Source: Bacteroidota bacterium | GTDB lineage: Bacteria > Bacteroidota > Bacteroidia > B-17B0 > Aurantibacillaceae | Length of the DNA: 64,000 nt | Assembly: GCA_018267825.1 (NCBI GenBank) | Contig: JAFDXR010000013.1 | Location: 16,275-80,274 of the forward strand | Direction of reading: 5' to 3' | Shown: in pieces, positions 13,258-63,037 of the stretch | Layout of the letters: every line of letters starts with the position of its first letter | Numbering within the stretch: the first letter of the stretch is position 1 | Program-made: the position numbers and the translations under genes | The notes under the pieces: generated by a model | The model's input: only the letters and a program-made list of their open reading frames with translations | Told to the model about the DNA's origin: nothing | Databases searched by the model: none

Positions 13258-13311
13258 ATGATACCTGAATTTTCGACATTTATTATAAATAAATAAAAAT
13301 CAACACCTTAC

Positions 13312-13380: not shown

Positions 13381-13486
13381 TTCATGCAAAATCTAAAATC
13401 ACCCCACCTCGTCCATGGTTTTTTCATTCTGCTGATCTTTTTCAGTCTGCTGATTAAACTCATAACCCGGTCCTAAAAATAATACA

Positions 13487-13909: not shown

Positions 13910-13919
13910 TCAATACATC

Positions 13920-14012: not shown

Positions 14013-14023
14013 CACTTACGACC

Positions 14024-14101: not shown

Positions 14102-14104
14102 ACT

Positions 14105-15805
14105 ATGAACACAGAATTAATCGGGGTTATTGCCACCTTTCTTATCACGGTTGCCTTAGCCATCCCCTTCGGGAAATATATAGCGCGGGTTTTTAAGGGT
14201 GAAAAAACGCTCCTGGATTTCCTGGCTCCACTCGAAACCCGTATTCTTAAACTTTGTGGTATCGATCCGGGTCGTCAAATGAACTGGAAACAGCATCTGT
14301 TGGCCCTGCTTGCCATAAACATGCTATGGTTTGTATACGCCTTCATCATGCTGCTAACACAGGGCAGCCTGTTTCTGAACCCGGATGGCAATCCATCCAT
14401 GAGCCCGGATCTGAGTTTCAATACAGCCATCAGTTTTATGGTGAATTGCAATCTTCAGCATTACTCCGGCGAAACAGGTTTAACCTACCTGACACAACTC
14501 GCGGTAATTACGTTTCTGCAGTTTGTTTCAGCGGCTACCGGTATTGCCGCACTCATTGTTGTTTTCAATGCCATGCGTGAAAAAGCGACCGAAGGTCTCG
14601 GAAATTTTTTCGACATCTTTTTGAAATCACTTACCCGGATCCTGTTGCCTGTAAGTTTTATCCTTGCTATAATCCTCGTGTTCAACGGAACACCAGCAGG
14701 CTTCGAGGGTAAAGACACCATCACAACCCTTCAGGGAGATACAGTGCAGGTATCGCGTGGCCCGGCTGCAGGTATGATTGCCATCAAACACCTCGGAACA
14801 AACGGTGGAGGTTGGTTTGGAGCCAACTCGGCACACCCGCTCGAAAATCCGAATTACCTGACCAATATGGTGGAGATGATCGCCCAGGTTTTAATCCCGA
14901 TAGCACTCATTTTCGCGATGGGGTTTTACCTGAACCGCAAAAAAATGGCTTATGTTATTTTCGGGGTGATGACACTTGGAATGTTAACCCTGCTTATTCC
15001 AACGCTGATTGCTGAGTCAAACGGTAACCCGGCAATTGCTCACATGGGTATCAGCCAGGCCACCGGAAGCATGGAAGGAAAAGAAGTGCGTTTCGGTCCA
15101 AAAGCCTCGGCCTACTGGAGTATTGTTACCACTGTTATATCAACGGGCTCGGTCAATTCCATGCACGACAGTTCTATGCCGGTATCAGGCACCATGCAAT
15201 TGCTGGGCATGATGACCAATGCATTTTATGGAGGCTGTGGTGTAGGTATCCTGAACTACTACATCTTCATCATCATAGCTGTGTTTATTTCAGGACTTAT
15301 GGTGGGCCGCACGCCCGAATTCCTGGGCCGGAAAATTGAAGCACGTGAAATGAAAATTGCCACACTCATTGCCCTGCTCCATCCCTTTCTGATCCTGGTA
15401 GGAACAGCCATCTCCTCCTTTGTTTATACAAAGGATCCTTCTGTCGGATGGCTCAATAACCCCGGTTATCACGGATTTTCGGAGATGCTCTATGAGTACA
15501 CATCCAGTGCGGCTAACAACGGCAGCGGATTTGAAGGCCTGGGTGATAATAACTGGTTCTGGAATATCACAACCGGGTTCGTACTGATCCTTGGCCGCTT
15601 TCTGCCGATCATCGGCCCGGTTGCCATTGCAGGTATCCTGGCCAATAAAAAATACGTTCCGGAATCTGCCGGCACTTTACGAACCGATACCGGCACATTC
15701 GGGATCATGACCTATGCAGTTATCATGATCATTGCCGCCCTGGCCTTTTTCCCGGCACTGGTGCTTGGGCCATTGGCCGAATATTTCAACTTATATCATG
15801 TTTAA
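14105..15805 (+). CDS. kdpA: Potassium-transporting ATPase subunit KdpA
   Basis: 566-residue channel-like subunit of the KdpFABC high-affinity K+ pump, with ten predicted membrane helices. The four selectivity-filter repeats are recognisable: FMVNCNLQHYSGE, LGTNGGGWFGANSAHP, GSVNSMHDSSMPVSG and AANNGSGFEGLG. It is in the usual order after kdpF and 12 bp before kdpB. Length is standard (about 560). Confidence 0.98.
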   Translation: MNTELIGVIATFLITVALAIPFGKYIARVFKGEKTLLDFLAPLETRILKLCGIDPGRQMNWKQHLLALLAINMLWFVYAFIMLLTQGSLFLNPDGNPSMSPDLSFNTAISFMVNCNLQHYSGETGLTYLTQLAVITFLQFVSAATGIAALIVVFNAMREKATEGLGNFFDIFLKSLTRILLPVSFILAIILVFNGTPAGFEGKDTITTLQGDTVQVSRGPAAGMIAIKHLGTNGGGWFGANSAHPLENPNYLTNMVEMIAQVLIPIALIFAMGFYLNRKKMAYVIFGVMTLGMLTLLIPTLIAESNGNPAIAHMGISQATGSMEGKEVRFGPKASAYWSIVTTVISTGSVNSMHDSSMPVSGTMQLLGMMTNAFYGGCGVGILNYYIFIIIAVFISGLMVGRTPEFLGRKIEAREMKIATLIALLHPFLILVGTAISSFVYTKDPSVGWLNNPGYHGFSEMLYEYTSSAANNGSGFEGLGDNNWFWNITTGFVLILGRFLPIIGPVAIAGILANKKYVPESAGTLRTDTGTFGIMTYAVIMIIAALAFFPALVLGPLAEYFNLYHV

Positions 15806-41400: not shown

Positions 41401-42787
41401 TATCGGAACAGCCCCCGTTGCTTACTTTTAATTCAACCGTTTTTGTTCCGGCCGAAGCATAAGTATGGTTGTCGTTTTGATTGGTCCCGAATGTTGTGCC
41501 GTCACCCCAGTCCCATGTATAGGTCTGAATATTGGCACCACCATTGGTACTGGAGTTATCAGACACCAATACTGAATAGTTGGCTGCACATGGCACCACG
41601 GTATAATTGAAATTGGCTGTGGGTTTCTGGGTAATTGTAAAATTGGAGTATAATACCGGAGAATTACAGGAAGACCCCGCCATACCAAGAGTTACAGAAT
41701 AGCTCCCCGTGACCGTGGGATTTATACATTGAGCCGTCTGCCCCGTCACACCGGGCCCTACCCATGAATAGGATGTAAATCCAGGTGGTGCGCATAATTG
41801 ATTATTGGTAACACCCTGGCAGAAATAGCTATTGTTTTGGCCTACCGGAATCGGAGTACCATTGAGACTTAAGGTCATAGGCTGACAAGAGCAATCAACA
41901 TAAGCCCAACCGGCATGCCCCCCCTGGGCACAATCGCTCGCTGTAAATTCAATTTTAACACATTGTCCGATATATGGCGTTAAATCGAATGAACGGGTGG
42001 CCCAATTCTTCCATTTATATGCGCCAGAGGTCTGAAAAGACGGGTCACCACCTGAAGAACAAGAACCACCTGTAGGCACAACATTGTATGCCGCGCAAGG
42101 TATTGGATTATTGCTGCAATCCGTAAATGCAATATTGAAATAAGGCTGATCTGTACAAGTATGCCCTGCATCTTCGAGTACTACAGCATACTTATATATA
42201 AATACTGAATTGGCTGCTGTAACTGTAAAAGTCTGACTCGCACGCACAACATAGCCACCCGTGGTTGCCCCATCACCTATGAGAAGAGAATAATTACCCC
42301 CACCGGCTGGTACGGTTGCCAGGGCCGGAACAGACGGGTCAGTACCTGGCCCGATAACAGTAAAACGTGTACTGGCCGATGGACAACAACCTGCCATCGT
42401 GGATGAATTCGTATTTGTTCCCTCTGTAATTGTCCAACCAGAGGTATTGCCGGTTTCAAAATCAACATTCGTACAGCCTGACTGAATCGTTGGATTGGTG
42501 TTTATATAATTTCTGGAAACGAGATTATACTTGTAATTGATATACTTTCGCTTAGCATACGAAATCTGCATGGTTTGTTCCCATTTTGGGGCACCAGACC
42601 AAGCCGCCTGCTGACGGGCAGCTATTTCATTAAAGCCCCGGATCGAATCTTCATCAAAAATTAACTGAACTGACTTCAGCTTACGTTCGATAAGCTCCTG
42701 TTCAGACAATCCGGCATGGTCATGCTGAGCGTGTATAAAAGAAAAACTAAGTAGCAGTAGTGGAACTAATAGTTTTATTTTCTTCAT
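38465..42787 (-). CDS. Giant PKD-repeat surface protein, T9SS type B sorting domain
   Basis: 1440 residues. Signal peptide (LLVPLLLLSFSFIHAQ), a helical stretch (about 25-90), then a jelly-roll domain (about 110-300; CTNVDFETGNTSGWTI, GWAYVDCSCQ). About eleven tandem PKD domains follow from roughly residue 390 to 1340, each starting with a (K/N)PTxxFT-like strand and containing a WxFGDG or WDYNxD motif. The C-terminus (about 1345-1440) is the gliding-motility-associated / T9SS type B domain: FYIPNCFTPGNNDGINDGF, MWIFDRWGMMIY, then VYVWKVKLFDVFGKKHDYVG. It is exported by T9SS and should act as a cell-surface or secreted adhesin-like protein. Standalone gene. Confidence 0.95.
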   Translation of the reverse strand: MKKIKLLVPLLLLSFSFIHAQHDHAGLSEQELIERKLKSVQLIFDEDSIRGFNEIAARQQAAWSGAPKWEQTMQISYAKRKYINYKYNLVSRNYINTNPTIQSGCTNVDFETGNTSGWTITEGTNTNSSTMAGCCPSASTRFTVIGPGTDPSVPALATVPAGGGNYSLLIGDGATTGGYVVRASQTFTVTAANSVFIYKYAVVLEDAGHTCTDQPYFNIAFTDCSNNPIPCAAYNVVPTGGSCSSGGDPSFQTSGAYKWKNWATRSFDLTPYIGQCVKIEFTASDCAQGGHAGWAYVDCSCQPMTLSLNGTPIPVGQNNSYFCQGVTNNQLCAPPGFTSYSWVGPGVTGQTAQCINPTVTGSYSVTLGMAGSSCNSPVLYSNFTITQKPTANFNYTVVPCAANYSVLVSDNSSTNGGANIQTYTWDWGDGTTFGTNQNDNHTYASAGTKTVELKVSNGGCSDSITKTFNVSVKPTAAFTTTNVCVGTIANFNSTSTPTAGLTQSWTFGDGSANGMGATTAHTYTSGATYNVKLVVTTPSLCKDSITQPITIYPKPTVSFTTSPVCFGTATSFSNTTTISPASALTWAWDYDNNTVVDNTTQSPSYTYTNTGNYTVELKATSANGCSDSTTVIITVNPMPTVTFTPVDACVNNNVVLNNTSSVVAPDNIQTWNWNFGGGTAPSNSTQNPTPLTYATSGVKTITLTATTNHSCSVTVTNTVNINPQPTAAFVASAVCKGIATTFTDQSTPTAGTTSVTAWAWDYTHDGTIDNTTQNPSFTFGSSGTFSTALVVTSANGCKDTVIVPVDVWGHASVNFSPTNVCFGTVTTFSDQTLTNAQANTGNLSSWNWTFGDGGTAASQNPPYTYTTVANATANTNYTVKLVVNTSHGCADSLTKTVTVFSLPTPGFTADSACFNSPTHLVDASNGNGNALTGYIWDYNGDGVADASGVSNPNHVFPAYGNTSVSYTVSTTPAAGLSCKTFTTQNIWVNPLPVPAFSFTNVCINAQPMNYDATASSIPVGTNTLYAWGYGDGVTGTGTTTNHTYGLAGSYNVTLTLTSNKGCVKNLTQQVTVYEKPHVTFSSAKTCFGSPTTFNGSMLPGSGNVTQWLWDFNSSINTIEGNGQNPSFTFNSQGTQTISLISITDPAQGSCRDTITRQIYVNYVPHPQFTVDKPAGCPLPHCVVFTDNTPAIPAPAQVVTWIWRFGDGTSLTANSNSQQSHCYTNSSSSALAYYNVTLVAVSDSSCTDSLTKNNFITVYPKPVADYTVNPNPGNVVEPLEYFINNSHDFTKWWWTFGDGSPTDSTNLNPSHTYSDVSANTYGSTLLVMNQYGCTDTAHVLVEIGPEFVFYIPNCFTPGNNDGINDGFIGKGIGISKYEMWIFDRWGMMIYYTDDINKPWDGRVQGKQNPVQQDVYVWKVKLFDVFGKKHDYVGHVTVLRGN

Positions 42788-47294: not shown

Positions 47295-48422
47295 TCAGGC
47301 TTCCGGGCCAAGTAAGGCCTTCAATACCTGTTTTTCCTTATCCCAGTTATTTTCGGCAGCAGCCAGGCGGGTATTCTGCTTCATCTGCGCGTATCCCGGC
47401 GATTCGAGGACAGAGCGGATCACAGCAGCAATATGAGAAGGTTCATGGGAGTCAATGAACACACCGATCCGGTAATGTTCCACCAGCTTTTCGATTTCGG
47501 GCAGGCGGCTTGCCAGGACTGGAATGCCTGCATGGATATAATCAAAAATCTTGTTGGGCAGACTGAAATGGTAGTTCAGGTTGGTATCTTTATCAATGGT
47601 TACGCCCAGGTCGGCATTCATGGTGTATTGTTTCAGGCCGGCAGCGTTTTGTTTCGGTACAAACATAACTTTCCCGGCGATCTGCGGAGCAGTGGCATCC
47701 TGTTTCAATTGCCCTATCACATCACCACTTCCAACAATAAGCAAGAGGTAATGATCCGGCAAAAAAGCCATGGCCTGCACCAATTCTTCAGCTCCACGCT
47801 GCACATTAATACCGGCTCCCTGCAGAATAATAATTTTCTTCTGATCCGGCAGATTCAGGTCAGTCCTCGTTTTGAGTTCAGGTAAAACTATCGTGTTCGG
47901 AATATTGCGCAACACGGCAAAAGGCCTTCCATAGCGTTCTTTGAAATAGGCTGCAATACTTTCATTAACGGTCAGGCAGGTATCCAGCTTAGGAACGATA
48001 GACCGTTCGAGCCTTTCCCAGATTCTTTTTTTGGAAGGATTAGCCTGAAGTTCCGGCACTTCACAGAAGATCTCGTGACTGTCGTAAATCAGGCGGATTC
48101 CTTTCCAGCGCGCTACCGTGTAGTTGGGCCAGAGGGTATCCAGATCGTTGGCCACCAGCAGATCGGCCTGCCTGAACAGAAGCAGAAAAAATAAGCGCAG
48201 GTTAAACCATGCATAAAATGCCGGACCACTCTCAAAAAACATACGCATCCGTTTACACCGGTAGGATCGCGGAGCGAGTGGCTGCGAGTCTCTTTTGGTA
48301 CGTCCGATGAGCAAAACCTCATAACCACATTCCTGCAGCAAAAGACAGGTTCTGTTCACACGCTGATCCGTTACAAGATCATTGATAACAGAAACTATTG
48401 CTATTTTTTTCGGGTTGGGCAT
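47295..48422 (-). CDS. Family 4 glycosyltransferase
   Basis: 375 residues, GT-B fold. N-terminal Rossmann domain with VINDLVTDQRVNRTCLLLQE, ADLLVANDLDTLWPNY and IRLIYDSHEIFCEVPEL. C-terminal nucleotide-sugar site with IILQGAGINVQRGAEELVQA, MNADLGVTIDK, NKIFDYIHAGIPVLASRLPE. It transfers a sugar from a nucleotide donor, probably in surface-glycan assembly. Last gene of the nine-gene operon, 26 bp after asnB. Confidence 0.92.
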   Translation of the reverse strand: MPNPKKIAIVSVINDLVTDQRVNRTCLLLQECGYEVLLIGRTKRDSQPLAPRSYRCKRMRMFFESGPAFYAWFNLRLFFLLLFRQADLLVANDLDTLWPNYTVARWKGIRLIYDSHEIFCEVPELQANPSKKRIWERLERSIVPKLDTCLTVNESIAAYFKERYGRPFAVLRNIPNTIVLPELKTRTDLNLPDQKKIIILQGAGINVQRGAEELVQAMAFLPDHYLLLIVGSGDVIGQLKQDATAPQIAGKVMFVPKQNAAGLKQYTMNADLGVTIDKDTNLNYHFSLPNKIFDYIHAGIPVLASRLPEIEKLVEHYRIGVFIDSHEPSHIAAVIRSVLESPGYAQMKQNTRLAAAENNWDKEKQVLKALLGPEA

Positions 48423-48448
48423 GGGTGTATGACACGAAGATACGAATG

Positions 48449-50362
48449 TCAGATTGCTTTAAAAACACGCTTCCAGATGGCCAGTGAATACAGGCGCATC
48501 ACAAAATATGGACGTGAACGCACAATGGTTTTGTATCCCTTTTTAAATTTATCGATCCGGATCATTTCCAGTTCAGCAGAGAGAGCCTCCAATACCTGCG
48601 TCTCACCTTCGAGCAACCATTTCACCTGTGGTGTTTCAAAGCCTGTTTTATCGCGCCGCTGGTATACTTCTTTCGGCAAAAAATCCCTGACGGCCTCGCG
48701 CAGCAGGTATTTCAGGGTGCCATCCTTTATTTTTGCAGAAGACGGAATCGAAAACAGGTAATTCACCAGTTCATGATCATCGGCAAACGGCACACGGCTC
48801 TCAATACTGAATGTCATGCTGCAACGGTCTTCGCACTTCAGGTAGGACTTGAGACGGCCGCCTGCATAGTCGTGCAGAAGCTGTTCATTGAGTGATGAAA
48901 ATATAGGTTCAGGTGTGGCTGCCGGCAGCGCTGCATCCGACTTGAAATAACCGGAGTAATCGATGCTGGTATTCAGAAATTCCCTGGCATATTGTTTCAG
49001 CAATGCTTTGGATGAACCCGGTAATGTCTTTTTTGCCGTGAGCATTTGTTTGCGGGCCTCCAGGTATTTTCCGTCACGGATCAGTTCTTTCCAGTAGCTC
49101 AGGTAATGGTGTGTGTAGCCGCTGAATATTTCGTCGGCACCCTGCCCGTCGAGCAATACCTTAATACCCGACTGCCCGGCCAGTTTCATAACCCTGTACT
49201 GCGAATAGGTGCTTGTACTCCACAACGGGATATCCTGGTAATACACCAGGTTTTCCATGTCACTGAAAAACTCTGTTGCCGCAGGGCTTACCTGGTGCCA
49301 GCGACCATTTACCCGGGCGGCAACAGCCGAAGCAAAACGGCTTTCATCGAATGACTCGGAATCAAACACACTTGTAAACAATTGCATGGAGCGCCCCGGT
49401 TGCAAATACTTAACGATGCCGGCAATTGCAGAACTATCAATACCTCCGCTTAAACAGGAGCCCACTTCCACATCGCTGCGCAGGCGAAGTTCAACAGATT
49501 TCATCACAAGCTCGCGGATATTCTGTATGATTTCATGCTCATCTGTATCCTGCGTATGGGTTATTGTCTGTGCGAAATATTTTTTGGTTTCCAGGGTATG
49601 TTCCTTCTTGTTGTAGAGGAGATAATGCCCCGGCTCCAGTTCTTTGATGCCATTGAATAATGAATCCGGCCGATGCTCGATGCGTGCATTGATCAGAAAT
49701 TCCATTTCCTGCGTTGCATCCGGCTGAAACGGCAAAACACCTGCCTTCAGAAAAGCCTTATGTTCACTGGCAAAAGCAAAGATCTCTTTCGAGTGATGGT
49801 AGTAAAACGGCTTCACCCCTACCCTGTCGCGGGCACAAAACACAAGCCCTGTATTTGTATCATACAATGCAAAAGCCCACATACCGTTAAACTGGCTTAA
49901 ACACTCAATACCCCAATGCTGGTAGGCATGAATAATCACTTCGGTGTCGGTATTGGTAGCGAAGCGATAGCCCTGCAATTCGAGATAACGGCGGATTTCA
50001 ATGTAATTATAAATCTCACCATTGTAGGTAATCCATATTTTTGCATCCTGGTCGCACATAGGCTGATGCCCGGCTTCCGTAAGATCGATAATGGATAAGC
50101 GGCGGTGTGCGAAAATAAGTTCTGCCGTTTCATTTCCGTTTCTGATATCCTGTTTTGGATTAAATCGGAATGTACCACTGTTTATATTCACCGCCGGTGT
50201 GTGATCAGAATGCAGGGGCACAGCCATGCCGTTTTTCACAGACACAAAGCCTTCGCCATCCGGGCCACGGTGTTGCAGGGCCCTGCTCATTTTGAAAACA
50301 GGTGAATCAGGACCTACAGGCCCGTTTCCGGAATGATAAATTATACCAGCGATGCCGCACAT
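48449..50362 (-). CDS. asnB: Asparagine-synthase-type glutamine amidotransferase
   Basis: 637 residues. Class II glutaminase with nucleophilic Cys2 (MCGIAGII), RGPDGEG, AHRRLSIIDL and NGEIYNY; synthetase domain with PP-loop SCLSGGIDSSAIAGIV and LLDGQGADEIFSGY. It makes an amide from a carboxylate with ATP and glutamine. In polysaccharide loci such enzymes often amidate uronic acids or amino-acid substituents rather than free aspartate; the operon context favours this. It lies 3 bp after the first deacetylase-like gene. Confidence 0.92.
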   Translation of the reverse strand: MCGIAGIIYHSGNGPVGPDSPVFKMSRALQHRGPDGEGFVSVKNGMAVPLHSDHTPAVNINSGTFRFNPKQDIRNGNETAELIFAHRRLSIIDLTEAGHQPMCDQDAKIWITYNGEIYNYIEIRRYLELQGYRFATNTDTEVIIHAYQHWGIECLSQFNGMWAFALYDTNTGLVFCARDRVGVKPFYYHHSKEIFAFASEHKAFLKAGVLPFQPDATQEMEFLINARIEHRPDSLFNGIKELEPGHYLLYNKKEHTLETKKYFAQTITHTQDTDEHEIIQNIRELVMKSVELRLRSDVEVGSCLSGGIDSSAIAGIVKYLQPGRSMQLFTSVFDSESFDESRFASAVAARVNGRWHQVSPAATEFFSDMENLVYYQDIPLWSTSTYSQYRVMKLAGQSGIKVLLDGQGADEIFSGYTHHYLSYWKELIRDGKYLEARKQMLTAKKTLPGSSKALLKQYAREFLNTSIDYSGYFKSDAALPAATPEPIFSSLNEQLLHDYAGGRLKSYLKCEDRCSMTFSIESRVPFADDHELVNYLFSIPSSAKIKDGTLKYLLREAVRDFLPKEVYQRRDKTGFETPQVKWLLEGETQVLEALSAELEMIRIDKFKKGYKTIVRSRPYFVMRLYSLAIWKRVFKAI

Positions 50363-50365
50363 AGA

Positions 50366-51658
50366 TCAGGAACGTATATAATGATGCAATGTTTCATATT
50401 GTTTTTTCCAGCCCGGGAAATGCAGTTCTGAAAAGCTCCGGTCGTGCCATACACTCACCAGGGTGCCATTCACTTTTTTTACTTCGTCAGCCAGTTCCTG
50501 CATCCGACTCAGCGCCTGTGCGGTCGGGAGTTTAAGGTAATCGTAGTACACTGAATCCATCATGCAAAAAGGCACCATTTCGAGTTCTGTAGCTTCGTTT
50601 TTCTGCAAATCAAAATAAAAGAAAGGCGTGCAGGTGCCCGCTCTGAAGCCATCATGAGATGCAAAGCCCATGGTGTAATCTTTTCGGATACCAATGGCTA
50701 TAAGCAATGCCGGTGTCCGGCGAATATCGAAGTGTAGGTAATGTTGCCTGCTGTGGCTCACAGACTGCCCGGCGAGCTGTTCCAGGTTTTTCTTCTCTTC
50801 ATGCAGGGTATGGCCCTGATCTGAAAAATAAGAAGGATGCAATCCGATGGTTGCTTTGCCTTTCACCGTGTCGATCATCGTTTTGAAAAGCGGATGATGG
50901 CATGGGAGAGCTCTGTCGAATTCAGTTTGACAATGAATGGTCAGAAAGAAGTAAATCAGTGGAATATGTTGCTGGCGGCTCCATTCAACCTGATACGTAT
51001 AATCCGCAAATGGATCGGGTTGTTTGCCTGCTCTCACGGCCCGGCGTTGTTTGATCTGCGCCCGGTTTCCTTTGATCAGGTCTCTAACGGATGCACCAAG
51101 CATGCGCCAACCCGGCTTCCCGAGGTAGGCATAATTGTTATCCACATCGATGGTAGAAATGTATTGAAACGAGCGCGCTCTGAATTCCAGGGATGGGAAA
51201 AGTTTACACAGAGCTTCTTTCAGTTCCATGCACCATAAATCCACAAGGGGTTTGTGCAACTGTTTATGCTTGTATAAAATACTCTGCTGCGCCTCAAAAC
51301 GATTGTGTTTATCGGGCGTAAAAGAAAGCCACTCTTCGTAACGCGAGATCATGTAGAACACTGCCGAAAACACATCGTATCCTAATGCTCCCTGTGTCGG
51401 AAATAACCGCATGATATCCCATTCTGTTACTTCCGGACGAATCTCATCCAGGGTTTGCCTGTTCAGAAGCCCGTGCGGTGCTATATGCAGACACCCGGGT
51501 AATGCATGTTCATCATAGCATAATTTAGGGCCGGCATGTGATCCGAAGGTTGCCCGATTGCCTGTAAGCTCATAGTCCGTGATGCAAACCCGTGTAAATA
51601 TAAACTCACACACGTAAGATAAACGATTGCTAATACCAGGTGAATAAATAAGTAGCAT
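50366..51658 (-). CDS. Polysaccharide-deacetylase-like protein, paralogue 1
   Basis: 430 residues. N-terminal domain of about 150 residues with YDVFSAVFYMISRYEEWLSF, then a deacetylase-like barrel: metal-site region YISTIDVDNNYAY, HPSYFSDQGH (IGLHPS), SHSRQHYLHFD, DYTMGFASHDGFRAGTCTPF and VSVWHD near the end. Same architecture and many identical motifs as the gene at 55843-57159, so the operon carries two copies. Possibly a sugar N- or O-deacetylase; no signal peptide, so it probably acts in the cytoplasm. Confidence 0.82.
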   Translation of the reverse strand: MLLIYSPGISNRLSYVCEFIFTRVCITDYELTGNRATFGSHAGPKLCYDEHALPGCLHIAPHGLLNRQTLDEIRPEVTEWDIMRLFPTQGALGYDVFSAVFYMISRYEEWLSFTPDKHNRFEAQQSILYKHKQLHKPLVDLWCMELKEALCKLFPSLEFRARSFQYISTIDVDNNYAYLGKPGWRMLGASVRDLIKGNRAQIKQRRAVRAGKQPDPFADYTYQVEWSRQQHIPLIYFFLTIHCQTEFDRALPCHHPLFKTMIDTVKGKATIGLHPSYFSDQGHTLHEEKKNLEQLAGQSVSHSRQHYLHFDIRRTPALLIAIGIRKDYTMGFASHDGFRAGTCTPFFYFDLQKNEATELEMVPFCMMDSVYYDYLKLPTAQALSRMQELADEVKKVNGTLVSVWHDRSFSELHFPGWKKQYETLHHYIRS

Positions 51659-51659
51659 A

Positions 51660-52406
51660 CTATTTTCCGAGCACAGACCGGGCTATTGATCTGAAAAACA
51701 CGTTCCAGCTAAAATACGTCATTTTTGCGGCTTTATTACGTTCCAGGTCATTTTTCATGATAGCCGCCGATGCATGCAGATCCAGTACAAAACAAGGCAC
51801 AGCATTAACCGTGAACTCCGTGATAATGCCTGCCCCACGAAATTCGTCCAGTAAAGGATTCACCTGGTTTACATAGCCCGGTTTTTTGGAGAAAATATGA
51901 AATGTAGCAGGCCCGGTTTTACCCTGCTCCACATATTGAATGGTGTATGATTTTTGCCGGCGATAGCCAACAGCCGACATTTCCTCGGCATAGTGTGCAA
52001 AGGTGAGTGATTGTTGCAGATCCACATCGATGCCCAGCAGAAGAGCATGGTGTTGATACATCCAGTGAAACGGTGAATCAATTCCGAAAGAACTTTTGTT
52101 TTCGAGGGCCAGGATCTCTGCCTGTCCTTTTCCCCAGACAGCAAACGAATGCATCGGATTTTTGGTCCGGCGGAAACCCTCATTCCGGAGGGCTTCTGCC
52201 GAAAGGGTTCCGGTGATTGGTGCAGTATGCTCCGGATCAAATGCATCGCCGTTGCGGAGCGTGTAATTAAACGTAGGGATGAGGATAGTTCCTTCCGGTC
52301 CCAGTTTTTGTTTCAGGGCATTGAGAAATGCCTGCGGATCGAATGTTTCCTTATGTTTGCGGGCCTGGTAGGCGAGCTTACGAATATCGGAGCTCAGGTA
52401 AACCAC
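51660..52406 (-). CDS. AAC(3)-family N-acyltransferase, odd N-terminus
   Basis: 248 residues from GTG at 52406. The family core is ILIPTFNYTLRNGDAFDPEH, MHSFAVWGKGQ (catalytic His) and SPFHWMYQHHALLLGIDVDL. It acylates amino groups; in glycan loci the target is usually an amino sugar. Family-like residues (EHTPLKPGD) continue in frame upstream of the GTG, across a run of nine T, without any start codon. Either the gene lost its start or a non-standard one is used. Gap to the GNAT gene is 69 bp, large for this operon. Confidence 0.82.
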   Translation of the reverse strand: MVYLSSDIRKLAYQARKHKETFDPQAFLNALKQKLGPEGTILIPTFNYTLRNGDAFDPEHTAPITGTLSAEALRNEGFRRTKNPMHSFAVWGKGQAEILALENKSSFGIDSPFHWMYQHHALLLGIDVDLQQSLTFAHYAEEMSAVGYRRQKSYTIQYVEQGKTGPATFHIFSKKPGYVNQVNPLLDEFRGAGIITEFTVNAVPCFVLDLHASAAIMKNDLERNKAAKMTYFSWNVFFRSIARSVLGK

Positions 52407-52475
52407 ATCACCCGGTTTAAGGGGTGTATGCTCAAAAAAAAAGAGATATGAGTGATAATCTGCCAGAATGTGCTT

Positions 52476-52955
52476 TTATAAAATTTTACGAAACTGTTCG
52501 AGTTCTGTATGGTAGCCCAGTTTTTTCCAGAAGAGCGCGGCATTTGTATTTCCGCGGATCACCTGGAGTTCTATGGAATGAACTTGTTTCTGATCAAACC
52601 AGTTTTCCAGTGTTTCTACGAGCCTGCGTGCAATGCCCATGCCCGTGTGAGCCTGTGGCACATATACATGTTGCACCACACCTACTTTATTTTCGCCCAA
52701 GTATGAGGGCAGAAGTTTAATGGAGCCATGAGCAAAACCAATGATATGCTCTTCCATAACAGCTACAGGGAGGCAGGCCAAACGATCGAGCGAAGGCAGC
52801 ACCGACTGCATCCATATTATTTCACCATTGGGAATGAGGGGCAGGTCAATACCAAGCTCATGAAAATACATGTAATAGTCGGCAAACAGGCGTGTGACTT
52901 CAGCCACATGCAAAGCATTATTTTTATCGAGTGTTTTTATTTGAATATTACCCAT
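52476..52955 (-). CDS. GNAT-family N-acetyltransferase
   Basis: 159 residues from the ATG at 52955, which overlaps the carrier-protein stop by 8 bp (ATGGGTAA). GNAT core: CLPVAVMEEHIIGFAHGSIK, GVVQHVYVPQAHTGMGIARR (acetyl-CoA loop), VHSIELQVIRGNTNAALFWKK. Longer frames upstream overlap the carrier gene and are not family-like. The operon position suggests it modifies an amino group of the glycan precursor or of the carrier-bound moiety. Confidence 0.85.
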   Translation of the reverse strand: MGNIQIKTLDKNNALHVAEVTRLFADYYMYFHELGIDLPLIPNGEIIWMQSVLPSLDRLACLPVAVMEEHIIGFAHGSIKLLPSYLGENKVGVVQHVYVPQAHTGMGIARRLVETLENWFDQKQVHSIELQVIRGNTNAALFWKKLGYHTELEQFRKIL

Positions 52956-53205
52956 GTTGCCGGTAAATAATATCGCATAATTTGCCAGGTGTGGCAATAT
53001 CTTTGGGGGCAATCGTTTCCAAGTCAATTTCAACGCCGGTTTTTTCTTCCATGGCTACAATAAGATCGATGAATGCCATGGAATCGTAAAGTCCGGAACG
53101 CATCAGATCTAATCCGGCATGCACGTCCGTTGCAGGAAAACCGAGAAGTGCCGCGCGTTGCTTTACTTCCGAAAGAATAATCTGCTCAATATCGCTGCGT
53201 GTCAT
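52948..53205 (-). CDS. Acyl/peptidyl carrier protein
   Basis: 85 residues, four-helix carrier domain. The phosphopantetheine attachment Ser42 is in RSGLYDSMAFIDLIVAMEEK (DSM instead of the common DSL), and the C-terminal helices are IDLETIAPKDIATPGKLCDI. It overlaps the adenylation gene by 4 bp. It should carry the residue activated by that enzyme, in the manner of DltC with DltA. Confidence 0.9.
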   Translation of the reverse strand: MTRSDIEQIILSEVKQRAALLGFPATDVHAGLDLMRSGLYDSMAFIDLIVAMEEKTGVEIDLETIAPKDIATPGKLCDIIYRQHG

Positions 53206-54662
53206 TTTATACTCTCTAATATCGCGCTTTTATCTGTTTTACCATTGCTGTTCAATGGAAATTTCTCAACAAAACGAATACTTTCAGGCACCATATAAAC
53301 AGGCAGGTGTTCACGCAGATACATCAGAAGGCCGGAACGAAGAGCGTCGTCGTGCTTTCCTTCAACAACGAGGATGAGTTGCTTTACCTGTTCCTGCTCT
53401 TTATCGGCGAGACATACAGTTCTTACCGTATCCGAAAAAGCCATGGCTGCAGATTCTATTTCTTTCAATTCGATTCTGAATCCGCGATACTTCACCTGTT
53501 CATCTGTCCTGCCTTTATAAATGAGTCCTTCAGGTCCTTCGGCAACCAAATCCCCTGTTTTATACCATACTTTGCCGGCTATGGTTTCAAACTTATCGGC
53601 CCCCGGCAGATCATAATAGCTGCTGATCACCTGTTTGCCGCTTAACCATAACTCACCTTCCGGCGATATATGGTATTCATTTCCCGGGAATACCTGACCA
53701 ATCTCCACAACGCCTTCACGCCCCGTATGACGCTCCGGGATATAGGAGCTGATAGCAATTGTTGCTTCCGTAGGTCCATAAAGATTAATGATCCGCGCCT
53801 GTGGAGCAGCATTAAATGCTTCGTTCACCAGCGTATATGGCAATGCTTCGCCGCAGAACATCATGGTTTTAAGCCCAGCCAGGTTCCCGGCTTTCAGTTG
53901 TTTCAGCTTTCGCATGATCTCCAGCATAGATGGCACCGAAAACCAGGATGTAATCCTGTAATCGCGGATATACCTGGCGGGCGACATCAGTTCCATATCA
54001 TCGGGCACACACAATGCAGCCCCTTTACTCCAGGTTACAAACAGATCGTGAACACTCAGATCAAACGTGAGGTCAAATGTATGTGAGCAGCGATCATTGG
54101 CTCCCAGCTCCAGGAAGTGATACATATGATCCATGTAGCTGCAGGCCTGCGCATGACTGATACCAACACCTTTGGGCGAGCCCGTGGATCCTGACGTAAA
54201 TAATACATAAGCCAGGTCAGAATGTGCCTTTGGAGCCGGGACATCATTCAGATAAGCATACACAATTTCTCCCTGGTGTACCTGTGTTTTAAGTAAACCC
54301 CGGCTGGCTACCGTTTCCAGAAAGGTGGCAAACGATTTATCGGAGCGGCTCCCGACAATGACAGGTGTCGATGAAGCTTTCAGAACAGAGAGGTTTCGCT
54401 GTGCCGGAAATTTTGGATTAAGCGGACAATAAGCATTGCCGGATCTCAGGATACCGAGAAGCGAATAATATACAGCATATAGTTTCGATCCGTAAAGCGC
54501 AATGGCTCTGTTCTTAAATCCCTGTGTATCGATATAACGGCGCACCGTATCTGAATCCTGCCAGAGTGTGTTGTAGCTGTATTCTGTATTTCCCAGCGCA
54601 ATAGCTGTATGTTCCGGAAAACGTTCAACAGTATCTTCAACATATGTTTGCAGCTTCATCAT
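53202..54662 (-). CDS. Stand-alone adenylation enzyme (DltA-like)
   Basis: 486 residues, ANL superfamily. P-loop LFTSGSTGSPKGVGISHAQA, core NLYGPTEATIAISSYIPE, hinge WYKTGDLVAEGPEGLIYKG and RTDEQVKYRGFRIELKEIES, catalytic Lys in FPLNSNGKTDKSAI. The short length and adjacency to a carrier protein fit amino-acid or acyl activation and loading, like D-alanine:carrier ligase. No condensation domain is nearby. The specificity cannot be read with confidence. Confidence 0.9.
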   Translation of the reverse strand: MMKLQTYVEDTVERFPEHTAIALGNTEYSYNTLWQDSDTVRRYIDTQGFKNRAIALYGSKLYAVYYSLLGILRSGNAYCPLNPKFPAQRNLSVLKASSTPVIVGSRSDKSFATFLETVASRGLLKTQVHQGEIVYAYLNDVPAPKAHSDLAYVLFTSGSTGSPKGVGISHAQACSYMDHMYHFLELGANDRCSHTFDLTFDLSVHDLFVTWSKGAALCVPDDMELMSPARYIRDYRITSWFSVPSMLEIMRKLKQLKAGNLAGLKTMMFCGEALPYTLVNEAFNAAPQARIINLYGPTEATIAISSYIPERHTGREGVVEIGQVFPGNEYHISPEGELWLSGKQVISSYYDLPGADKFETIAGKVWYKTGDLVAEGPEGLIYKGRTDEQVKYRGFRIELKEIESAAMAFSDTVRTVCLADKEQEQVKQLILVVEGKHDDALRSGLLMYLREHLPVYMVPESIRFVEKFPLNSNGKTDKSAILESIK

Positions 54663-55846
54663 AATCCGAGTTCAAGCATCAGGGCATCGAGCAGGTATTT
54701 GGTAGCCCAGTTCGGAAAAGCAAAAGGTTCGTATTTACCCCACACCGGAAATGATCCCTGCAATGCACCTTCAGACTGCACACCCATACGGCGGGTAAAG
54801 CCCTGGATGTGGATCAATTGATTATTCATTTTGTCTGCTGCTTCGCGGTATTTCTTTTCATGTGTGTGCTTGTATAATTTACTCCAGATAATACTCATCT
54901 GGGCGCATCCGGTACAGATCATGTATTGCGAGCCATGCCAGTTTTTGTCGTAACGTCCGTTCAATGCCTTGTGCTCCTGAAACATGTTCAACACAACATC
55001 CGCACTGTTTGTTGCAGAGGTTATGAACACATCGTTTTTCAGCATCAGACCCGCATCAAGCATGCCGTCAATCGTATAAGCAATAGTATGTAGTATGGGT
55101 TTGTGATTATACTGCAGGGTATTATCGGCATTGGCAAACCAGTAATTTTTTTGCTGCTGCGTATCTATGATCCAGTAAATATTTTTCTCAGCCGCGATTC
55201 TGTATTTTTCATCCCCCGTAACCAGGTAGAGTTGAACAAGCGGGGCAGCTACATAGCTGTCGTAAGTACGCTTTGCCTGCATGGAGGCCATGGTCTGCCA
55301 TGAACCATCCATTTCCTGGATGGAACAAAGCCAATTACCCGCCCGGATACAGGCATCAAGATAGTCCTGCTTTTTGGTGAGCTCAAAGGCCTTCATGAGT
55401 CCACGCATCACCTGCCCTGTATTGAAGACCACTTCCGGTTTACCGGCATCTACATAGCCTGCCTGCCATCCCCCACTCTCTTTCTGAATGGAAACCAGCC
55501 AATCGGCACAGTCCAGCAATGGCTGAAGATCGCCACGGAGGTAAGCCTGACTATAAGCAAATAAGGAATCGATAATGTAACCTGATGTTTCGGGATACGA
55601 GGACGTGTGCCCGTCGACTATATAATAAGTGCTGAAGCCCTTATCTTTCTGAAACTGTTGATTGTTCAGAAGCCAATGTGCAGCGCGGTCCATGGCCGCT
55701 TTTTTTTCGGTGACACCATAACTGGCATTTTTATAGGCTCCGGAAATATAGGAAGTTATATTCCGCCACAACAGGGCGCGTTCTTTCCTGGCAAAACAGG
55801 TAATAAAACTATAACGTAAGTAGCGCCCGAGGGATTTTAGTATCAC
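54659..55846 (-). CDS. Alpha/alpha-toroid protein (squalene-cyclase-like repeats)
   Basis: 395 residues. Repeated helical hairpins with QW-like motifs (VSIQKESGGWQAGYVD, CSIQEMDGSWQTMASM, LNNQQFQKDKGFSTYY, NTGQVMRGLMKAF) indicate an alpha/alpha6 barrel. It has no clear signal peptide, but the basic N-terminus may bind the membrane. Such toroids include prenyltransferases, glycan lyases and uronyl epimerases or hydrolases. In this operon a glycan-acting enzyme is most likely; the activity is unknown. 4-bp overlaps on both sides. Confidence 0.7.
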   Translation of the reverse strand: MILKSLGRYLRYSFITCFARKERALLWRNITSYISGAYKNASYGVTEKKAAMDRAAHWLLNNQQFQKDKGFSTYYIVDGHTSSYPETSGYIIDSLFAYSQAYLRGDLQPLLDCADWLVSIQKESGGWQAGYVDAGKPEVVFNTGQVMRGLMKAFELTKKQDYLDACIRAGNWLCSIQEMDGSWQTMASMQAKRTYDSYVAAPLVQLYLVTGDEKYRIAAEKNIYWIIDTQQQKNYWFANADNTLQYNHKPILHTIAYTIDGMLDAGLMLKNDVFITSATNSADVVLNMFQEHKALNGRYDKNWHGSQYMICTGCAQMSIIWSKLYKHTHEKKYREAADKMNNQLIHIQGFTRRMGVQSEGALQGSFPVWGKYEPFAFPNWATKYLLDALMLELGL

Positions 55847-57159
55847 AGCGCTAATTTAACAATATCTTCGTAAACACGGAACCAGCCTTGCCATTCGGGA
55901 GCTGTACCCATGGTATCGTTATGAAAAATAGTGATGAGTTCGCCCTGGTATTTTTTCACGATCTCGATAATCGGGCGGGCTTTTTCGGCTGCATCGTCAA
56001 TAACAGCCTTATGGTTGAAGCGCAGTGTGGTTTCGCTGAGGGCAAAGGGATGAATGCGAAGGCCGGTTTCGAGTTCCTCGTCCAGGTCGTACCAATAAAA
56101 CGGATGACAAATACTGGCTCTGAATCCGTTATGTTGCGAATAGCCCATGGAGTAATCGTCGGTAATGCCTAATTCCAGAAGTATGCGGTACGTGTCGGGG
56201 AATTTCAGCATGGAAAAATGCTGACGCGAACTGCTGATCTCGCGATGTGTGATCCGCGACAACCTGCTGATCTCGATCTTCACCTGGTTTTCATTGCCGG
56301 TAGAGCCAAACGAGGGATGAATGCCGATGCGGGCATAATCTGCCAGGTGCTTGATGAGTTTCTGAAAATTGAGATTATTGGAGGGATGATTTTTATCATT
56401 TACGCCGTAATCGCCCAACAGAAAAAAATACATCACCTGTATCTTATATTTTTTCTGGATTTCCAGCTGATAATCGTAAGAATCAAATGGGTCTGCTTCT
56501 TTATTAAGGAGTACAGCGGTGCGCTGCAAAAAATCTTTTTTATCAAGCCGTACAATATCTCTGAAATACCCGCCAAATGAGCGCATCACGCCTTTTTGCT
56601 TATACCTGTAAGCATTATCAATATCGATAGTAGACACATACCTGTACTCCGGGTATTTCACGCGCAGTGCAGGATACATGGCACGAAGCTGTTTCTCAAA
56701 TTCAGCTACCCAGATGTTGACCAATGGTTTTTCCAGGAAATCGTATTGGTATGCCAGGCTGCTTTCGGCTTCGAAACGGTTAAATTTATCGGGCTTAAAC
56801 GGCAGATACTCTTCATAGCGGCTTACGAGGTAAAACGCAGCGCCGAATACATCGAAAGGTAACTGGCCGCTATAGGTTTTGAAAAAGTAGCGGATATAAT
56901 TCTGGTGATTATGCAACTGGATGGTCTGCTCCTTGATTCCCGGTTCAAAAAGCAAACCGGTAGCCTGGATATGAAACGGTGAATCTACTTCCTGGTGCGT
57001 ATACGAAATCTTGACGCCATCGTAAGCCGTATACTCCATGGTATCGGTAATAATCGTAAACGATAGTCCCAATAAGTCCTTGAAGATCATATTAAAAATA
57101 TACCGCACACGTGGGGTCGATTTGTGTGTATAGATGAGAATATGATCGGTGGCTTGCAC
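55843..57159 (-). CDS. Polysaccharide-deacetylase-like protein, paralogue 2
   Basis: 438 residues, GTG start; first gene of the nine-gene operon. Same layout as the 50366 gene: FDVFGAAFYLVSRYEEYLPF, YRYVSTIDIDNAYRYKQKG, VMYFFLLGDYGVNDKNHPSN, ARIGIHPSFGSTGNENQVKI, SSSRQHFSMLKFPDTYRILL, DYSMGYSQHNGFRASICHPF and ITIFHNDTMG. The metal-type Asp/His set is kept. Intracellular by prediction. The two paralogues probably act on different units of the same glycan, or form a heteromer. Confidence 0.82.
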   Translation of the reverse strand: MQATDHILIYTHKSTPRVRYIFNMIFKDLLGLSFTIITDTMEYTAYDGVKISYTHQEVDSPFHIQATGLLFEPGIKEQTIQLHNHQNYIRYFFKTYSGQLPFDVFGAAFYLVSRYEEYLPFKPDKFNRFEAESSLAYQYDFLEKPLVNIWVAEFEKQLRAMYPALRVKYPEYRYVSTIDIDNAYRYKQKGVMRSFGGYFRDIVRLDKKDFLQRTAVLLNKEADPFDSYDYQLEIQKKYKIQVMYFFLLGDYGVNDKNHPSNNLNFQKLIKHLADYARIGIHPSFGSTGNENQVKIEISRLSRITHREISSSRQHFSMLKFPDTYRILLELGITDDYSMGYSQHNGFRASICHPFYWYDLDEELETGLRIHPFALSETTLRFNHKAVIDDAAEKARPIIEIVKKYQGELITIFHNDTMGTAPEWQGWFRVYEDIVKLAL

Positions 57160-57240: not shown

Positions 57241-57942
57241 TTATTTTTTAAACACAATCCAGTTGCTCTGTCTGCCCGTTTGAGAAAGGTCCTTTCCGAT
57301 CGTGAGAATTTTACGGGTTTTGGGATCCCTGTACCAGCCTTCGTCCCAGGCACCCATATCGGTATAGATGAGATTAACAACACCCAGTTTTACGAGGTCT
57401 TCTGAAAACACGGCCAGTGTTATGGCTTCGGTGCTTTCAACAACAGCCACCGAATTATCTTTCATGAGGGCAATACCGCGACGCTGAAATAATTTCTGGT
57501 CCTTAAAAGAAGCGGCCTTCCCATTCTGTATGCATTGTATCTGCTGAAAAAAGGAAGCTTTGGTTGCTTCGATGATTTTAAAGAGACTATCGGAAAATAA
57601 TTTTCCCTTTTGTGACTGAAACATCCGGCAGCCTTTATGATCGATCATAAATACACCACCCAAACCGGTATTTATTTTCCCGCGATTTCCTATTTTTCCA
57701 TCAACGGCATAAATGCCATCTACCTGGAAGTTCTGAAGGTTTGTGAAAGCCGCCGGAATACAAAGCACTACCTGTGTATCGACTTTGGAAGGACGGTTTG
57801 TCTGGAACTGGATATGACAGTTATTCTTCCGGAAGAATGTATAGTGTGTGCCACTCTCCCCTGTCTTAGGCTCCACACCTATATTCTGAGCCTTCGCTGA
57901 AATACATCCGCAAACGATCAGAATATAGAGTAAGCGTATCAT
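57241..57942 (-). CDS. Phosphodiester-glycosidase-like exported protein
   Basis: 233 residues with a signal peptide (LLYILIVCGCISAKAQ). The middle and end resemble the NAGPA phosphodiester glycosidase fold: IPAAFTNLQNFQVDGIYAVD, INTGLGGVFMIDHKGCRMF, RRGIALMKDNSVAVVES, then LGVVNLIYTDMGAWDEGWYR where the family has LNLDGGGS. The usual glycine-rich active-site text is replaced by DMGAWDEGW, so catalysis is unsure. It follows the phosphohexomutase gene by 6 bp. Confidence 0.6.
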   Translation of the reverse strand: MIRLLYILIVCGCISAKAQNIGVEPKTGESGTHYTFFRKNNCHIQFQTNRPSKVDTQVVLCIPAAFTNLQNFQVDGIYAVDGKIGNRGKINTGLGGVFMIDHKGCRMFQSQKGKLFSDSLFKIIEATKASFFQQIQCIQNGKAASFKDQKLFQRRGIALMKDNSVAVVESTEAITLAVFSEDLVKLGVVNLIYTDMGAWDEGWYRDPKTRKILTIGKDLSQTGRQSNWIVFKK

Positions 57943-60479: not shown

Positions 60480-62513
60480 TTATCCCTTTGTGTTCAGTTT
60501 GCCGAGCATCATCCTGGCAGCCTGATTTCCGGGATCTAATTTAATCATGTGGGTTAAAACTTTCGACGCCTCCGCGTATTGCTGTTTAACGATATAAAGG
60601 TCTACACATTTCATGAGCAGCGGCACATAATCGGGATCGAGCTTCAGAGCACGGTTATAGTATTGCTCGCACTCAATGAGTTTATGCTGTGTAAATTTCA
60701 TGTATCCCATATTGGTCAGGGCGCTCACATGTTTCGGGTATTCTTTCAGCAGGGCCAGGTATTCTTTCTCGGCATCCGCCAGACGATTGTTCATCGCATA
60801 GCAGGTAGCCAGTTTGTTTCTGAATTCCATGTAATACGGTGCCAGTTCAACCGCTTTCTGAAACCAGCGGAGTGCGGCAGCAGCATTTCCCGTACCATTG
60901 TATGATTCGCCTATTCTGTATGCTGTCCAGGCATGTGCATTGTCATACGATTTCTTCTGCAGATAATCCTTGTACAGGGCATCTTCGCCAAACTGTCCGG
61001 CGTATTGAATAACTTTTGCATAATCCTGTTTGCAGAATGCCCACTGTACCAACAGGCAAATGGTTTTGTCAAGGTCTTGTTTCTTATCACTGAGTAAGGC
61101 CCTGGCACTATCGAGGTACATGGCCTTCATGTCAAACTTTTCGTATTGGTTCAGGTAAGCCCTGGCTTTGGTAAGCTTATCCGGATTTTTTTCATTTATG
61201 GCATACAATCCAATGAATGTTTTTAATGCCTGTTTTTCCTGCGCGTTTACAGGTTTCCGGATATAATGATCGTGCACCGTAACATGGGGAATATCAATAG
61301 ACCCTGATTTTGGCATGTGGCAACTCACACAGTTCATGAGGTTAGCCTGTGCATGCCCCTGTTTGGCGTGAGATGCGGCTACCACATTTTTATCGCTGCA
61401 ACTCAACGTGGAGGCTCCTCCGGTACTGTGACATTTACGGCAGGCATCGTTAAATACTTCCTTGTTTGTTTCGCGCACACTCACATGCGGGTTGTGGCAG
61501 GTCACGCAGGTCAGGGCTTCCTTATAGGGTTTGAGTGCCGTCGATTTGGATGCTTTTTCATAACTTCTGATAAAGCACTGGCTTTGTTTCAATCGATCGG
61601 CATGCGATGCCATAATAAACTCATCGTCGGCATGCGCATACTTCGGCAAAAACACGGTCATGTAATTGCTCAGTTTCATCCCGGGTTTAAAATCGTAGAA
61701 AGATTTCCCTTCTTTCAGAATGGAATTCCCCTGAAGGTGACAGCGCTGACAAATATCAAACTGCAGATCTACCGGGAGTTTTGCCGGATTCACAATACTG
61801 TAGTCGATATAACGCGAGGTATCGATCTTTGAACCGGTACTACGCTGCGCCACGTGTATACTACCCGGTCCATGGCAACGCTCGCAGTTAATGCCCTGTG
61901 GTACAGCATTGAATTTATTCTCAGAACCCAATACAAAATCAGGGTAAGCATTGTGGCAACTCATACACTCGAGACCGATTTTGCGATTGAAATGCGAGTT
62001 CATTCCATTTTCAAATCCAGGCGGGAGATCCCATTGTTTTTTCTGTGTATAAAATGTCATGGGCATCTGGTTCAGGTAACCGTTTACGCGCTGAATGTGC
62101 GAATTGGTGTGCTGCCCGGAGCCAATAATATAATTAACCGTTTCCGTTCGCGAAAAAACCGTATCCCGTTTGTCGAGTCTGAATTCTGTGATCTGCAGGC
62201 TATCATGACTCCACGACGCACTGTAATGCATATCGGAAAAAGAATCGTAGATCACATGCTGCGAGAAATCGGCAGCTGACTTACTCCGGCTGGCAACATC
62301 GAAAGACCGGCCCATGCCTGTATTGATAAAGGTTTGGTATATATCCTGGTGGCAAAGTGCGCAGGTCTGAATACCTACGTAATGCGCAGAATCTGCATGA
62401 TTGAGATACAGTAATGTATCTTTCACTTCATGATGCTGCGCTGTACCTCCACCCTCCGGGGTATGGCAGGCAAGCATGATAAAAAATATACCTATCAGAA
62501 AAAAATACTTCAT
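60480..62513 (-). CDS. Seven-haem cytochrome lipoprotein with TPR domain
   Basis: 677 residues from the ATG at 62513, fixed by an ATGA overlap with the GNAT stop. Lipoprotein signal MKYFFLIGIFFIMLAC (Cys16). Seven CxxCH motifs: CALCH, CMSCH, CERCH, CQRCH, CVTCH, CRKCH and CVSCH, all in the N-terminal 400 residues, in the arrangement of NrfA/hydroxylamine-oxidoreductase-related multihaem families. The C-terminal 250 residues are TPR repeats (RWFQKAVELAPYYMEFRNKL, YYNRALKLDPDYVPLLMKCV). Anchored in the envelope, probably for electron transfer or as a scaffold. Confidence 0.9.
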   Translation of the reverse strand: MKYFFLIGIFFIMLACHTPEGGGTAQHHEVKDTLLYLNHADSAHYVGIQTCALCHQDIYQTFINTGMGRSFDVASRSKSAADFSQHVIYDSFSDMHYSASWSHDSLQITEFRLDKRDTVFSRTETVNYIIGSGQHTNSHIQRVNGYLNQMPMTFYTQKKQWDLPPGFENGMNSHFNRKIGLECMSCHNAYPDFVLGSENKFNAVPQGINCERCHGPGSIHVAQRSTGSKIDTSRYIDYSIVNPAKLPVDLQFDICQRCHLQGNSILKEGKSFYDFKPGMKLSNYMTVFLPKYAHADDEFIMASHADRLKQSQCFIRSYEKASKSTALKPYKEALTCVTCHNPHVSVRETNKEVFNDACRKCHSTGGASTLSCSDKNVVAASHAKQGHAQANLMNCVSCHMPKSGSIDIPHVTVHDHYIRKPVNAQEKQALKTFIGLYAINEKNPDKLTKARAYLNQYEKFDMKAMYLDSARALLSDKKQDLDKTICLLVQWAFCKQDYAKVIQYAGQFGEDALYKDYLQKKSYDNAHAWTAYRIGESYNGTGNAAAALRWFQKAVELAPYYMEFRNKLATCYAMNNRLADAEKEYLALLKEYPKHVSALTNMGYMKFTQHKLIECEQYYNRALKLDPDYVPLLMKCVDLYIVKQQYAEASKVLTHMIKLDPGNQAARMMLGKLNTKG

Positions 62514-63037
62514 GAAGCCTTTACCAACTGCATCATCCATTCATCTTCAAACTCACCGTCGGCAATGCGGTTCCAGTTTTCTTTAAGGCCGCATTTTTTG
62601 AATCCGTTCTTTTCAAACAGACGGATACTGGGCTCGTTGCTTGTACCGACATTGCAATACAGCTGTTTCAGTAATAGCGTATTGAATGCATATTCTGTAA
62701 TCAACCGGAGTACCTCGGTGGCAAAACCATTGTTACGAAACGTTTCGTCGACCAGGATGCCCACACCAGCCCGCTGGTGAAAAGGTTCGAAATCAAAAAG
62801 ATCTATAGCCCCCACGGCATCATCGGAGCCGTGCTTGCAGGCAATGAGCCGGAGTTGTTTATTGGTATAAATATCGTTGTGCTGATTGGCAAGAAATTGC
62901 TCCAGAACAAATTTACTGAATGGTGCCTGGGTATTGCTCACGCGCCAGATAGAAGTGTCATTCTCCCATTTGTATAACAGGTTAAGATCTTCAGGCTCCA
63001 TGGCCCTCAGGTAAATATGTTTACCACTCAAAAACAT
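62510..63037 (-). CDS. RimJ/RimL-type GNAT acetyltransferase
   Basis: 175 residues. MFLSGKHIYLRAMEPEDLNL at the start, VGAIDLFDFEPFHQRAGVGI, FRNNGFATEVLRLITEYAFN and CNVGTSNEPSIRLFEKNGFK are the classic pattern of the Acetyltransf_3 group. It acetylates an N-terminal or side-chain amine; the target is unknown. Overlaps the multihaem gene (ATGA) and the next gene upstream (TGATG), so it is translationally coupled on both sides. Confidence 0.93.
   Translation of the reverse strand: MFLSGKHIYLRAMEPEDLNLLYKWENDTSIWRVSNTQAPFSKFVLEQFLANQHNDIYTNKQLRLIACKHGSDDAVGAIDLFDFEPFHQRAGVGILVDETFRNNGFATEVLRLITEYAFNTLLLKQLYCNVGTSNEPSIRLFEKNGFKKCGLKENWNRIADGEFEDEWMMQLVKAS

Follow-up and report, generated by a model that had tools for sequence, protein, structure and literature searches.

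How Bacteroidota vary the linker sugars of their type IX secretion system (T9SS) is an open question, with three linkers described in the literature cited here. An operon in a Bacteroidota bacterium of the family Aurantibacillaceae (GenBank assembly GCA_018267825.1) bears on this question. It lies on a 64,000-nucleotide stretch of contig JAFDXR010000013.1 (positions 16,275 to 80,274; hereafter the window) and encodes, in order of transcription, a deacetylase, an alpha/alpha-toroid protein, a stand-alone adenylation enzyme, a phosphopantetheine carrier protein, a GNAT acyltransferase, an AAC(3)-type N-acyltransferase, a second deacetylase, an AsnB-type glutamine amidotransferase and a glycosyltransferase of family 4 (GT4). 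Which sugar might such a set of genes make, and what would the sugar be used for? The answer we favor, with a probability of about 0.5, is that the operon branches off a Wbp/Vim-type pathway of nucleotide-sugar synthesis and makes a diamino-uronic (uronamide) sugar with a carrier-delivered aminoacyl group, probably for T9SS-linked lipopolysaccharide (LPS). This figure covers the proposed mechanism as a whole, and each single step is held with less confidence. The Wbp/Vim linking-sugar set is already known; what is new is the toroid protein together with the four-gene unit of adenylation enzyme, carrier, GNAT and AAC(3).

Relation to the Wbp/Vim pathway

An earlier sequence-only reading of this DNA knew of no described pathway with exactly these genes. 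Most of the set nevertheless maps onto the described Wbp/Vim pathway (PMC7468200), since VimE-like proteins are encoded twice, the AsnB enzyme is possibly WbpS-like, the GT4 gene occupies the place of VimF, and candidates for WbpB, WbpD, WbpE and WbpI are found elsewhere in the genome. These last genes, the WbpI-like epimerase being divergent, lie next to one another and apart from the operon (G000:C5). The best named matches at this site are WbpE (3nyu, 301 bits) and the UDP-GlcNAc3NAcA 2-epimerase 8sxv (245 bits), while the dehydrogenase matches 3q2i (232 bits), which we take to be WlbA, and the hexapeptide acetyltransferase matches 3mqg weakly (49 bits). The genome also encodes PorU (1283 bits) and type A T9SS cargo, with at least 150 TIGR04183 domains.

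Both deacetylases match the VimE profile NF053580 over most of its length, deacetylase 1 with 134 bits over profile positions 89-427 and deacetylase 2 with 152 bits (equivalog cut-off 440). The predicted model of deacetylase 1 (predicted local distance difference test, pLDDT, 87.5) has a CE4/NodB fold from about residue 170 onward, with structural matches to 3rxz (Z 16.6), ArnD (Z 16.0) and WbmS from a Bordetella O-antigen locus (Z 15.1). Its catalytic residues D179, D181, H281, R312 and H314 are all present, and those of deacetylase 2 are likewise intact. A close relative of deacetylase 1 adjoins PGM in genus g129 (L113, L115, L147, L148), and in genus g127 relatives of the AsnB enzyme (695-745 bits) stand directly after a pair of VimE-like genes.

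The catalytic state of such proteins tracks PorU. Of 53 sampled Bacteroidota with a DUF7033 protein and a PorU call, 45 have PorU; the catalytic residues of the DUF7033 proteins are intact in 41 of these and in one of the eight genomes that lack it, and degenerate in four and seven, respectively; the Fisher p of 1.6e-5, not corrected for kinship, overstates the evidence because the degenerate cases fall in two families. For this count, two genomes with a PorU match at E of about 1e-4 to 1e-3 were scored as lacking PorU, and three genomes whose matches were intermediate were left out. The eleven proteins with lost residues (L037, L038, L040, L041, L042, L043, L044, L047, L052, L062, L064), seven of them from a genome without a clear PorU, are possible pseudoenzymes.

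The adenylation-carrier unit and the toroid protein

The pocket code of the adenylation enzyme, read by alignment, is DLHFMCLIAK. Asp at position 235 of the non-ribosomal peptide synthetase (NRPS) code argues for an alpha-amino acid, and the code as a whole suggests a small one without singling any out. Of the eight orthologues compared initially, seven share the pattern DLHFxCLIAK, as do the more distantly related L099 and L252; the exception among the eight is L156 (DLQFMCFISK). The code is also different in L251 (DPHYFSLVNK) and in stand-alone adenylation enzymes that are unrelated. Among relatives of solved structure, the best is the second adenylation domain of LgrA, presumably Gly-specific. 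Close relatives of the window enzyme (over 500 bits) are confined to four of 295 genomes in the class sample, the window genome included.

The Asp-Ser attachment motif of the carrier is conserved, and a six-frame search placed the carrier directly after the adenylation gene in every cassette checked. Residues T135, H138 and E141 of the AAC(3)-type enzyme are invariant in the alignment. Its close relatives occur with a carrier at seven loci (L096, L097, L156, L157, L159, L168, L171) and without one at three (L139, L172, L173); alongside distant AAC(3) proteins, a carrier of this profile was never found.

For the toroid protein, the predicted model (pLDDT 74) resembles the GH88 unsaturated glucuronyl hydrolase 3wiw (Z 30.2) and sugar 2-epimerases (Z about 28), a fold that does not fix the function. 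Scanning genome contigs with a toroid profile yielded 80 loci. A close toroid is present in 27, all assigned to Bacteroidota by their record titles, and each of these lies near at least one of an epimerase (16 loci), VimA (15), AAC(3) (14) or a deacetylase (13). The adenylation-carrier-GNAT trio accompanies six of the 27 (L155, L156, L159, L168, L171, L184), GNAT is present only where the adenylation enzyme is, and at L159 toroid and adenylation enzyme lie in a single open reading frame (ORF). Toroid relatives with AAC(3)-type genes close by were also seen in four records titled Lokiarchaeota (L181, L182, L183, L185), L183 having a short-chain dehydrogenase-like gene near the toroid relative in addition.

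Neighborhoods in relatives

In relatives from the same family and the wider class, the usual locus holds a WbpI-like epimerase, a VimE-like gene and a VimA-like gene, flanked by radC-like (recognized by eye), upp-like and HAD-like genes. The VimA-like product is a FemAB-type protein of about 304 residues with a weak match to TIGR03019, a family reportedly matched by VimA itself (PMC7468200). A few genomes add the toroid and the four-gene unit to a locus of this type. For example, genome G255 (L096/L184) has the order epimerase, deacetylase 1, toroid, adenylation enzyme, carrier, GNAT, AAC(3), deacetylase 2 and VimA, so that the seven genes from deacetylase 1 to deacetylase 2 match the window. 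The first five recur in G262 (L095), up to the contig end. This recurrence in the same order indicates a grouping beyond chance. A search for the whole nine-gene set via DUF7033 in the phylum sample gave zero further copies; the set emerged only among relatives from the family and when the toroid served as query.

Other gene sets take a comparable place elsewhere, namely a ketoreductase after AAC(3) (L161, L175, L177), a formyltransferase (L162), and an FkbH-domain protein with a carrier and a VOC protein (L157). Each of these sets would suit an amino sugar that is N-acylated. Of the cultured relatives found, Thermaurantimonas aggregans has the toroid, AAC and ketoreductase combination and lacks the adenylation unit. 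At L157, positions 11216-14390 hold carrier, FkbH-domain protein, VOC protein and AAC(3) where the adenylation unit would be, a possible glyceryl-type acyl variant. As most of the related loci come from metagenome-assembled genomes, gene absences in them are weak evidence.

Proposed mechanism

From this gene content we infer a series of reactions. UDP-2,3-diacetamido-2,3-dideoxy-hexuronic acid would be made by the Wbp enzymes encoded elsewhere in the genome, and one or both VimE-like deacetylases would free an amino group. The adenylation enzyme would activate a small alpha-amino acid, most likely Gly or Ala, and load it on the carrier, where GNAT would probably N-acetylate it; the AAC(3)-type enzyme would then move the acyl group from the carrier to the amine freed on the sugar. 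A uronamide may be formed from the carboxylate by the AsnB enzyme, GT4 would add the sugar to a lipid-linked glycan, and the toroid protein would somehow act on the same sugar. The most likely place of the sugar is the part of the LPS onto which PorU puts T9SS cargo. In outline, this agrees with the sequence-only reading, in which an amino or acyl acid is activated, loaded on the carrier and passed to an amino sugar, with amidation as a further step; the gene content supports this chemistry for an amino acid. An aminoacyl group on the sugar, delivered by the carrier and probably N-acetylated, is preferred because the unit accompanies VimA in most of its holders, because the sets replacing it elsewhere cannot provide an amine, and because GNAT always stays with the adenylation-carrier pair in toroid loci.

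Several points weigh against this proposal. WbpA could not be pinned down, the UDP-glucose-dehydrogenase-like protein at C22 having no assignable substrate. The VimE scores fall short of the equivalog cut-off, and the AsnB enzyme, at 357 bits, falls short of the TIGR03108 cut-off of 817. DUF7033 proteins exist in PorU-less genomes too, mostly in degenerate form. PorU itself is present in 79 of 80 relatives, so its co-occurrence says little. The roles given to GNAT and to the toroid protein are guesses. The four-gene unit also occurs away from Wbp/Vim loci (L251, L252) and is therefore portable. Finally, a scan of the genome with the VimA profile turned up no strong orthologue: the best match (64 bits) is a different FemAB paralogue at C8, whereas VimA orthologues of relatives score about 125-470 bits.

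Alternative explanations

The missing VimA raises the first alternative, that the adenylation-carrier unit replaces it, supplying a free-amine Gly or Ala that GNAT or AAC(3) would transfer and PorU would join to cargo. In genome G287, the syntenic C8 locus contains VimA, with the FemAB paralogue on one side and, on the other, a deacetylase-like protein that is 68% identical in the two genomes, and the gap in the window genome falls exactly between these two neighbors. The pocket code is compatible with a small alpha-amino acid, and Ser, Gly or Ala is present on known linkers (PMC7468200, PMC11969387). However, unit and VimA occur together at L096/L184, L156, L159, L168 and L171, and at separate loci in G321, so the unit is not a general VimA substitute. 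Moreover, several other relatives without a strong VimA also lack the unit, and the obligate GNAT suggests an acylated amine. Replacement is thus one reading among others, and we regard it as doubtful. If it were true, NRPS-type chemistry would feed a protein sortase, joining type IX cargo to LPS in this lineage.

In G287, a Dlt-type set (carrier, DltD, MBOAT and adenylation enzyme) adjoins VimA within an O-antigen-like glycosyltransferase locus (L149:6706-10889). This set is missing from the window genome at the corresponding locus (L243).

Unlikely, too, and slightly more so, is a sugar of an O-antigen, capsule or exopolysaccharide unconnected to type IX secretion. Similar enzymes act in O-antigen synthesis, including amidation by WbpS/WbqG (PMC7468200), and the two loci with the unit but no Wbp/Vim genes would suit such a role. 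Yet the VimE and VimA genes of relatives occupy a conserved chromosomal site, from the radC-like gene to the upp/HAD-like genes, rather than a variable O-antigen cluster, and, as described above, the catalytic state of VimE-like proteins goes with PorU.

Esterification of D-alanine onto a surface polymer, as in Dlt systems, is very improbable: the adenylation enzyme and the carrier do score against DltA and DltC, but both below cut-off, the pocket code is unlike that of the L149 enzyme, the partner genes are N-acyltransferases and deacetylases, and, unlike at L149, DltB (MBOAT) and DltD were not found among the operon genes or scanned neighbors. Least probable of all is a small, secreted non-ribosomal natural product, which the grouping of adenylation, carrier and acyltransferase genes might suggest, but the conserved partners are sugar-pathway genes and the nine genes include no condensation or thioesterase domain. 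An exosortase gene is likewise not among the nine, and the sequence-only reading had already remarked on these absences.

Operon layout and gene calls

All nine ORFs are present on the minus strand in the order first described (Table 1), and with one strand and short gaps a single transcript is plausible. The claim that most junctions overlap by 4-8 bp holds for four of the eight; in transcription order they measure -4, -4, -4, -8, +69, +1, +3 and +26 bp, the last four being gaps. Two starts deserve comment. GNAT begins at the ATG at 52955, replacing 53033. For AAC(3), the listed GTG would cost about 21 residues. These correspond to the N-terminal end of the L096 relative and are encoded in frame just after the GNAT stop, in a stretch with rare starts only and no common start codon; an ATT at 52469 is a possible start and would leave a gap of 6 bp in place of 69 bp.

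Table 1. Genes of the operon in order of transcription, with window coordinates and the matches behind each assignment.
Gene product	Coordinates	Strand	Basis
Deacetylase 1, VimE-like, 438 residues	55843..57159	-	DUF7033 N-terminal part and CE4/NodB-fold catalytic part; PF23019, 111 bits
Alpha/alpha-toroid protein, 395 residues	54659..55846	-	(alpha/alpha)6 barrel in the predicted model
Stand-alone adenylation enzyme, DltA-like, 486 residues	53202..54662	-	General amino acid adenylation model TIGR01733, 270 bits, and DltA NF003417, 256 bits, both below cut-off
Phosphopantetheine carrier protein, 85 residues	52948..53205	-	PF00550, 28.4 bits (cut-off 20.8); attachment motif D41-S42
GNAT acyltransferase, 159 residues	52476..52955	-	PF00583, 49.6 bits
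AAC(3)-type N-acyltransferase	51660..52469	-	PF02522, 100 bits; listed start GTG 52406
Deacetylase 2, VimE-like, 430 residues	50366..51658	-	PF23019, 110 bits
AsnB-type glutamine amidotransferase, candidate WbpS-like uronic acid amidase, 637 residues	48449..50362	-	TIGR01536, 466 bits, over cut-off
GT4 glycosyltransferase, 375 residues	47295..48422	-	PF13439 and PF00534, over cut-off

The operon is separated by 91 bp from guaA and by 81 bp from the upstream ORF. The latter (57241-57942) encodes a protein of 233 residues with a likely signal peptide and zero Pfam matches; an equation with the DUF7033 neighbor of about 230 residues in Flavobacteriaceae-like genomes was rejected, as the sequences did not match. 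Further off, the window encodes a 1440-residue protein with PKD repeats and a T9SS sorting domain of type B (38465-42787) and a protein with multihaem cytochrome-like matches and TPR repeats (60480-62540).

Comparison with known systems

A literature search for loci of glycans decorated with amino acids, in which carrier proteins, AAC(3) or FkbH take part, gave nothing useful. The operon can be set beside four described systems. With DltA/DltC it shares a stand-alone adenylation enzyme and a separate carrier, as well as Cys at pocket position 301, which we take to be part of the DltA code. It differs in its sub-threshold scores and in the N-acyltransferases that follow in place of DltB and DltD. 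With XrtA/PEP-CTERM loci it shares AsnB, ligase and deacetylase, and, in relatives, FemAB-type proteins. The likeness is partial, as previously suggested: TIGR03098 (156 bits, cut-off 592), TIGR03108 and TIGR04063 all stay below cut-off, and no exosortase was found among the genes scanned, the rest of the genome not having been searched for one. To our knowledge, AAC(3) and the toroid protein are not part of that set.

The Wbp/Vim system of Porphyromonas gingivalis and Tannerella forsythia is matched in a VimE-type deacetylase, an AsnB-type amidotransferase, an adjoining glycosyltransferase, PorU with type A cargo, and candidate WbpB, WbpD, WbpE and WbpI in the genome. In T. forsythia the epimerase BFO_2566 lies two locus numbers from vimA (BFO_2568), resembling the epimerase-VimE-VimA order of the relatives studied here. 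In the window genome, by contrast, VimA is missing, a second VimE-like deacetylase is present and WbpI stands away from the operon, to which the toroid, adenylation enzyme, carrier, GNAT and AAC(3) have been added.

The N-alanyl-deoxyhexose linker of Prevotella intermedia shares with our proposal an amino acid N-linked to a T9SS linker sugar but is built on a deoxyhexose. This species is reported to lack WbpB, WbpD, VimA and VimE, and the activation route that places alanine on its linker is reported as unknown (PMC11969387). The locus described here is a small, testable candidate gene set that shows N-acylation sets swapped within the VimE/VimA neighborhood, and its adenylation enzyme and carrier would allow a two-gene assay in vitro of which amino acid is activated.

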